Shown here one piece after another: positions 56,952 through 58,526 of a DNA stretch of 58,526 nucleotides; the first letter of the stretch is position 1, and each line of letters begins with the position of its first letter. The notes under the pieces are model-generated. The model ran no database searches. It had not been told where the DNA came from and worked only from the letters and a program-made list of their open reading frames with translations. This DNA is from an uncultured bacterium. Its GTDB lineage: Bacteria > Atribacterota > Atribacteria > Atribacterales > Caldatribacteriaceae. The stretch spans positions 1 through 58,526 of the forward strand of contig CALAIW010000015.1 of assembly GCA_937922705.1 (NCBI GenBank). Reading direction: 5' to 3'. The position numbers and the translations under genes are program-made.

Positions 56952-57426
56952 TGCGCATCCTCAGATGAAACGCGTGACATACTGCAACCGCTAAAGCATC
57001 AGCAACGTCATCAGGACCTGAAATGTGTTCACACTGAAGAATCTGGCGGACCATATATGCAACTTGGCGTTTTGTGGCTCGTCCATATCCTACAACGGCT
57101 TGCTTTACCTCAAGAGGGGTATACCCATACACCGGAACCTCACAAAGAGCAGCACAAAGAAGCACGATACCCCGAGCAGCTCCCACCGAAAGAGCTGTGG
57201 TAACGTTCCGGTTGAAGAAGAGTTCCTCAACTGCAACTTCCTCAGGAGCATACGTTGTAAAAAGAACACCAAGGTCCTCAAAGAGAGAACGCAAGCGCTT
57301 CTCTGGCGAGAGACTCTCTGAAGTTACAATACATCCGGCATCGAGTAAACGTAACCTATCCCCTTCAACCTCAAGAAGGCCGAAGCCGGTGAGCGCTATC
57401 CCCGGATCGATACCAAGTACCTTCAT
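56944..57426 (-). CDS. ruvC: Crossover junction endonuclease RuvC
   Basis: 160 residues. Catalytic acids are in [12 protein letters not shown] (Asp 7), VAVEELFF (Glu) and [15 protein letters not shown] (two Asp). It cuts Holliday junctions after RuvAB migration. Overlaps yebC by four bases and ruvA by eight. Confidence 0.97.
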
Positions 57427-58175
57427 GAACTCTTCAGCGATTCAAGAAGTTCGTCGGCGATATCAAAGTTAGCGTAAACTTCCTGGACATCATCGTGATC
57501 TTCCAAAGCCTCAATAAGCGAAAGAACTTGCTGTGCCTGTTTTCCCTCAACACTTACCGTAGTTTTGGGAACCATGGTAATCTGGGCAACGGCGTACTGT
57601 AAGCCTCTCCGGTCAATAGCCTCTTTGACTTCTTCAAAGTTTTCGGGAGCAGTAATGACATCAATAGTAGTTTCAGTAGAGCGGATGTCCTCAGCGCCTG
57701 CATCAATAGCTACGGCCATGATTTCTTCCTCGTCAACCTTTCCCTTCTCGAAACTAATGAGTCCTTTACGCTCGAAAACCCAGGACACGCATCCTGTCTC
57801 TCCAAGGTTCCCACCATGTTTGCTAAAAAGATGTCGTATTTCTGCTGTTGTGCGGTTCCGATTGTCTGTGGTAGCCTCCACCATAATGGCAACACCACCC
57901 GGTCCATATCCTTCGTAGATAATTTCTTCATACGCTACGCCTTCAAGTTCGCCAGTTCCCTTTTTGATAGCTTTCTCAATATTTTCCTGAGGCATGTTCA
58001 TTTCTTTTGCTTTCTGGATAGCGAGACGAAGGCGCGGGTTCGTTTCGGGGTTACCGCCACCCTGGCGTGCCGCAACGGTAATAAGGCGAATAAGCTTGGA
58101 AAAGGTTTTACCACGTTCAAGATCGGTTTTTGCCTTCTTATGCTTTATTTGGGCCCACTTCGAGTGTCCAGACAT
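57423..58175 (-). CDS. yebC: YebC/PmpR-family protein (translation factor or regulator)
   Basis: 250 residues. [30 protein letters not shown] is the family opening, with [30 protein letters not shown] following. Family members are annotated as transcription regulators; recent work links YebC to translation of difficult proline stretches. It heads the ruv-que-sec-rel operon 55 bases after the rRNA terminator. ATG 58175; a start at 58184 would add three residues. Confidence 0.94.
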
Positions 58176-58234: not shown

Positions 58235-58272
58235 AAAAAAACCTGGGAGAGACCTTTCTCCCAGGTTTTTTT
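58235..58272 (-). terminator. rRNA operon terminator
   Basis: A 16-bp perfect stem (58235-58250 with 58257-58272) with a 6-base loop; the A/T ends provide a U-run on both strands. It lies six bases after the 5S rRNA 3' end. Confidence 0.92.
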
Positions 58273-58278
58273 ATCTTC

Positions 58279-58440
58279 TTCCCGGCAGCGTCCTACTTTC
58301 CCGCCCAGTTCCCCAGGCAGTATCATCGGCGCTGGAGGGCTTAACTCGGGGTCCCCAAAAAGTCGTCTGACTTTTTGGGGTGCCCACTTCCGGGTTCGGA
58401 ATGGTTCCGGGTGTTTCCCCTCCGCTATGGCCACCGGGAA
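58279..58440 (-). rRNA. rrf: 5S ribosomal RNA with a 42-nt expansion
   Basis: The mature ends pair as an 11-bp helix I (TTCCCGGTGGC at 58430-58440 with GCTGCCGGGAA at 58279-58289). Core segments GCCATAGCGGAGGGG, CCATTCCGAACCCGGAAG and TAAGCCCTCCAGCGCCGATGATACTGC are standard. The gene is about 162 nt instead of about 120 because 42 bases interrupt the normally continuous GGAAGTTAAGC. See the next entry. It lies about 36 bases after the 23S end. Confidence 0.93.
58344..58385 (-). other. Expansion segment inside 5S rRNA (12-bp hairpin)
   Basis: On the plus strand CCCCAAAAAGTC (58353-58364) and GACTTTTTGGGG (58369-58380) form a perfect 12-bp stem with a 4-base loop. An outer GGG/CCC extends it. 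The insertion falls after the position equal to about U55 of E. coli 5S, between helix III and the 3' strand of helix II. Removing it restores a standard 5S sequence. Confidence 0.9.
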
Positions 58441-58476: not shown

Positions 58477-58526
58477 GCGGTCAAGTCCTCGACCGATTAG
58501 TACCCCTCGGCTCAAGGTGTTACCAC
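58477..58526 (-). rRNA. rrl: 23S ribosomal RNA, 3' end (partial)
   Basis: Read on the minus strand, the last 50 bases contain CCGAGGGGTACTAATCGGTCGAGG-type sequence ending in GACTTGACC, the conserved 3' end of bacterial 23S rRNA. The rest of the gene is outside the window. No tRNA lies in the short 23S-5S spacer. Confidence 0.92.

Follow-up and report, generated by a model that had tools for sequence, protein, structure and literature searches.

The window, a contig of 58,526 nt (CALAIW010000015.1, assembly GCA_937922705.1) from the genome of a Candidatus Caldatribacterium sp. (G000 below), ends within an rRNA operon whose last gene encodes a 5S rRNA of unusual length. The features that define this locus, all of which lie on the minus strand, are collected in Table 1. 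The Rfam 5S model aligns to the gene over its full length (model positions 1-120 of 120, 67.8 bits, E 9e-14) and delimits it to 159 nt, not the 162 nt given in the first-pass annotation of this DNA. A second 5S rRNA gene in the same genome (C17:71066-71182; 117 nt, 97.2 bits) likewise lies behind a 23S end, and removal of a 42-nt segment from the expanded gene leaves a sequence identical to this normal copy, with zero mismatches. Both the claim of a genuine 5S expansion with an intact core and the exact extent assigned to the segment are borne out by this alignment.

Table 1. Features of the expanded 5S rRNA locus, in coordinates of the window
Feature	Coordinates	Strand	Basis or remark
23S rRNA gene, 3' end	58477..58526	minus	contig stops within the gene; 5S is the last gene of the rRNA operon
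Expanded 5S rRNA gene, 159 nt (117-nt core + 42 nt)	58438..58280	minus	Rfam RF00001 and the normal copy
42-nt expansion segment	58344..58385	minus	exact alignment to the normal copy; equivalent placements up to 3 nt away, to 58347-58388
Lower stem, 5' side, UGGG, pairs with CCCG	58383..58386	minus	constrained fold and insert-only fold
12-bp stem, 5' arm, CCCCAAAAAGUC	58369..58380	minus	fold z -6.2; invariant across five species
4-nt loop, AGAC	58365..58368	minus	variable: GUCU in G006, GCAG in G003, ACAG in G001 and G004
12-bp stem, 3' arm, GACUUUUUGGGG	58353..58364	minus	fold and five-species comparison
Lower stem, 3' side, CCCG	58347..58350	minus	constrained fold
Rho-independent terminator (CCTGGGAGA...TCTCCCAGG and T run)	58235..58275	minus	immediately 3' of 5S; sequence itself
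yebC-type gene	57426..58172	minus	marker of the slot with the expanded 5S in relatives

Because the flanks carry an AGT repeat, the point of insertion is ambiguous by 3 nt, and four placements (after core position 50, 51, 52 or 53) are equally good. Two of these four, after position 50 or 51, coincide with the bulged A-A of helix III (52-53 in Escherichia coli numbering). It is from this conserved bulge that the arm leaves helix III, and not from the loop A/helix II-III side to which it had originally been assigned. From root to tip, the arm comprises a 4-bp lower stem (in the full context), a 2x2 internal loop, 12 perfect base pairs and a 4-nt loop; the perfect stem and its loop, as anticipated from the sequence, span 58353-58380. 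The insert folds at -25.3 kcal/mol, compared with -10.0 +/- 2.5 kcal/mol for 200 dinucleotide shuffles (z -6.2), none of which folded as well. An expansion segment is defined by more than 12 nt of self-paired sequence inserted between conserved elements of the core, and the 42 nt found here, with that z-score and with an exact core on both sides, answer to this description.

The same arm is present in the 5S rRNA of five species, namely G000, three further members of Caldatribacterium (G001, G003 and G004, from a set of congeners G001-G004) and one member of a sister genus (G006), all of the phylum Atribacterota. The carriers include Candidatus Caldatribacterium saccharofermentans OP9-77CS (G003) and Caldatribacterium isolate RSWS11 (G001). 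An error of assembly could be suspected from the position of the gene at a contig end and from the insert-free second copy in the genome, the latter being the very observation that the first-pass annotation regarded as decisive against the insertion. The second 5S of G000 does lack the segment, but that gene is part of another operon, and four further assemblies contain the expanded copy. Since the insert appears in five independent assemblies of distinct species, and lies inside contigs in G001 and G006, an artefact is excluded for all practical purposes.

Every expanded copy occupies the operon slot upstream of yebC, directly so in Caldatribacterium and at a distance of about 3.5 kb in G006; in G004 the gene is cut by the contig start, and the insert and yebC are visible. 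Counterparts of the terminator lie 3' of the expanded copies in G001, G003, G004 and G006, and the 23S rRNA gene upstream is complete and without large inserts in G001 and G006. The other rRNA operon, which precedes a murJ-type gene, carries a normal 5S in G000-G004 and in G008, while the yebC slot itself holds a normal 5S in G002 and G008, one species in each genus. We do not conclude that the expanded copy is the sole 5S of G006, where the contig on the murJ side stops some 80 nt short of murJ, at the expected site of the other operon. The segment is thus tied to one operon and was probably lost, or overwritten through gene conversion by the other operon, in two species at the least; its repeated gain is a less simple alternative.

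In each of the five carrier genomes the arm motif occurs once, and only in the 5S rRNA gene; searches of 56 further relatives, of 37 genomes belonging to the class of Caldanaerobacter and of 2.9 million viral contigs did not recover it. This distribution bears on the notion that a mobile or repeat hairpin (MITE-, REP- or IS-like) struck a 5S gene by chance, a notion to which the perfect palindrome, the AGT flank as a possible 3-nt repeat and the G006 loop, which is the reverse complement of the G000 loop as if flipped, lend some colour. A motif of single copy confined to 5S, missing from viral contigs and from the Caldanaerobacter class, and the occupation of the same site by different inserts in other phyla, largely refute it, and we reject the mobile reading as very improbable. 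The inverted loop itself (AGAC in G000, GUCU in G006, that is, GTCT in the DNA of L034) is consistent with the flipping of a perfect palindrome, as by a template switch.

The expanded copies also differ from one another outside the arm. The expanded 5S of RSWS11 (L035; C73:47002-47187) reaches 186 nt through a further tandem duplication, of 27 nt in helix III/loop C, which is either real or an assembly loop, and in G003 and G004 the expanded copies have each lost 1 nt close to the junction. A changed helix IV/loop D, CTGCTCTCGCAAACTGGGCGG compared with CTGCCTGGGGAACTGGGCGG in the normal copies, is common to the expanded genes of G001, G003 and G004 (together L042, L033 and L035), with pairing kept.

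Two folds of the expanded RNA were weighed against each other. When the canonical helix III is imposed, the full-length RNA reaches -72.6 kcal/mol and the arm forms an extra helix at the bulge; the unconstrained minimum, at -76.5 kcal/mol, rebuilds helix III with the 3' end of the insert, and the Rfam alignment adopts this same rebuilt helix. The naked expanded 5S RNA is therefore predicted to favour the rearranged helix III by about 4 kcal/mol and, on modelled thermodynamics alone, the arm is not neutral to the core fold. In G006, two pairs of helix III are changed on both sides (G-C to U-A and A-U to G-C), such that the canonical helix retains every pair and the rearranged form loses one. 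These pair changes may be older than the insert, since they are also found in the normal 5S of G011. Free energy alone misfolds 5S rRNA of the Thermoanaerobacter type too. The insert as the 3' half of a rebuilt helix III was considered and set aside on account of the pair lost in G006. We favour the canonical fold with a protruding arm because of the G006 pairs, because free energy fails for the Thermoanaerobacter-type 5S and because the long Thermoanaerobacterium form is known in ribosomes.

A comparison of G000 with G006 provides a measure of constraint on the arm. Every arm base outside the loop agrees (38 of 38). The same two genomes have diverged at 10 of 117 positions of the 5S core, show extensive change in the 23S-5S spacer and differ in yebC at 26% of all sites and at 66 of 96 fourfold sites (69%). 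At the fourfold rate, and assuming independent sites and vertical inheritance, the chance of zero changes in the 24 stem bases is about 1e-12. Variation among the five species is confined to the loop, one lower-stem base and the junction bases. Because 38 nt have stayed identical while the core and the fourfold sites of yebC diverged, the comparison suggests that the arm sequence is under selection, although the identity could also stem from recent exchange between the genera. The 12-bp stem has undergone zero compensatory changes; being invariant, it offers no covariation to prove its pairing in the RNA.

These observations also speak to the view that the expanded gene is decaying and little used, a 5S pseudogene that persists through linkage while the normal copy meets the needs of the cell. 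The existence of that normal copy, the normal 5S in the yebC slot of G002 and G008, the internal duplication in G001 and the single-nucleotide losses in G003 and G004 are all compatible with decay. Set against these are an unchanged core in G000, covarying helix III pairs kept in G006, helix IV changes in G001, G003 and G004 that still pair, an intact 23S and terminator, and an arm that is invariant at near-saturated neutral divergence, on the strength of which we consider decay quite unlikely.

In our interpretation, which we hold to be likely, the yebC-side rRNA operon would yield a functional 5S rRNA that bears a true expansion segment, in the form of one almost straight hairpin arm rooted in the helix III bulge and sitting at the exposed top of the central protuberance, with the canonical 5S fold kept despite the arm. 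Large subunits would take up this expanded 5S as well as the normal one encoded by the murJ-side operon, giving two ribosome types per cell, and the arm sequence would be held by selection, probably as a contact or binding site. The insert, its site, its recurrence in one operon slot of two genera, the intact operon surroundings and the near-invariant arm are matters of observation, from which we infer that the expanded 5S is transcribed, escapes excision, is incorporated into ribosomes and serves some function. With a normal 5S also present in the genome, the expanded copy need not be functional and is in principle dispensable.

A more specific proposal, possible but on the unlikely side, is that the arm would serve as a sequence-specific docking site for a dedicated protein or RNA, on 5S rRNAs and ribosomes of a second, specialized class, and would have been maintained in one rRNA operon of Caldatribacteriaceae since before the genera split. 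Such a role would account for the constancy of both arms alongside divergence in the loop, the spacer and the synonymous sites.

RNase III can cut perfect helices of the kind formed by 12 bp extended by 4 bp. The arm could thus be an intervening sequence, excised by this enzyme after transcription to leave a 5S whose two pieces stay joined through helices I-III, much like fragmented 23S rRNAs; excision is left possible for several taxa by the authors of a survey of expanded 5S rRNAs (PMC7812874). We judge this unlikely, as the helix is short for RNase III and broken by the 2x2 loop, the invariance of the arm exceeds the needs of a cleavage helix and, in Thermoanaerobacterium, a segment at the same site is retained in ribosomal 5S.

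In order to place the insert in a wider context, 84,980 species genomes were scanned for 5S rRNAs with 30-60 nt between CGG and GYTAAGC, a pattern that detects inserts at this site only and in a collection from which records very near the genome of the window may be left out. Nine records resulted. The same insert was recovered in OP9-77CS and RSWS11; the other true matches came from Thermoanaerobacter, Caldanaerobacter and one Aquificota metagenome-assembled genome (MAG), each with a different insert. The rest consisted of a chance hit to tRNA-like sequence, an incomplete 5S tandem where a contig ends, and a gap filled with Ns. A scaffold end of Rhodococcoides kyotonense (L048:1-160) carries a partially tandem-duplicated 5S that is likely an assembly artefact. 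In the Aquificota MAG (WFSI01000088.1; L047:4660-4820) the 5S is 161 nt long, and its insert at the helix III bulge resembles that of Thermoanaerobacter (TCC...GGGGGCCCCCG...GGGGTGCTA in common), reflecting either transfer to another phylum or a wrongly binned contig.

Expanded 5S rRNAs are a rare but known kind of rRNA expansion, and the first-pass annotation was correct on their rarity in bacteria and in citing Clostridia and halophilic archaea as precedents. Stepanov and Fox (2021; PMC7812874) catalogued 89 of them in 15 types, from Clostridia, Pseudoalteromonas and haloarchaea only. Our results add the phylum Atribacterota to that list, the novelty residing in the phylum and in an arm sequence almost unchanged between two genera; we found no publication on Caldatribacterium 5S rRNA or on Atribacter 5S insertions in a literature search with partial journal coverage. 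The constancy of the arm at near-saturated neutral divergence is a comparative hint of selection on such segments. Furthermore, whether ribosomes are specialized can be tested directly in this system, given a genome with one normal and one expanded operon and relatives whose corresponding slot holds a normal 5S.

The closest known counterpart, overlooked initially, as was the conservation of the arm across two genera, is the thermoanaerobacterial type, whose site and size class were already described: an insert of 41-46 nt at 52-53, forming two hairpins and often found alongside a normal 5S, in Thermoanaerobacterium, Thermoanaerobacter, Caldanaerobacter and Caldanaerobius (PMC7812874). The long Thermoanaerobacterium-type 5S was isolated from ribosomes by Sutton and Woese in 1975 (as reported in PMC7812874), and position 52-53 is among the least obstructed sites on the bacterial ribosome (PMC7812874). 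The Caldatribacterium insert shares with this type the helix III bulge, the size class (here 42 nt), the setting in anaerobic thermophiles, the presence of expanded and normal 5S in one genome and the location at the end of an rRNA operon. It differs in phylum and in forming one long arm in place of two hairpins of unequal size, a distinction reproduced when a Caldanaerobacter 5S copy (two hairpins) and the Caldatribacterium insert (one arm) were folded. The two insert sequences are mostly different; their alignment score is matched by 1.9% of mononucleotide shuffles, a weak signal given that both are GC-rich hairpins, and compatible with either shared origin or convergence. That anaerobic thermophiles carry two kinds of insert at this bulge fits the idea of a permissive site on bacterial 5S.

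Other systems resemble this one in part. In Halococcus morrhuae and its relatives, cryo-EM revealed a helical insert protruding from an unperturbed 5S core, the likeness ending with an insert of 108 nt at 104-105 near loop E, in an archaeal 5S that is the only type in the cell (PMC7530397). The 5S rRNAs of Thermacetogenium, Halanaerobium and Halobacteroides likewise bear a long unbranched helix, but one rooted in loop C (positions 34-37). Finally, the intervening sequences of bacterial 23S rRNA are also hairpin inserts in an rRNA gene with a patchy distribution between operons, differing in their residence in 23S and in their excision by RNase III.
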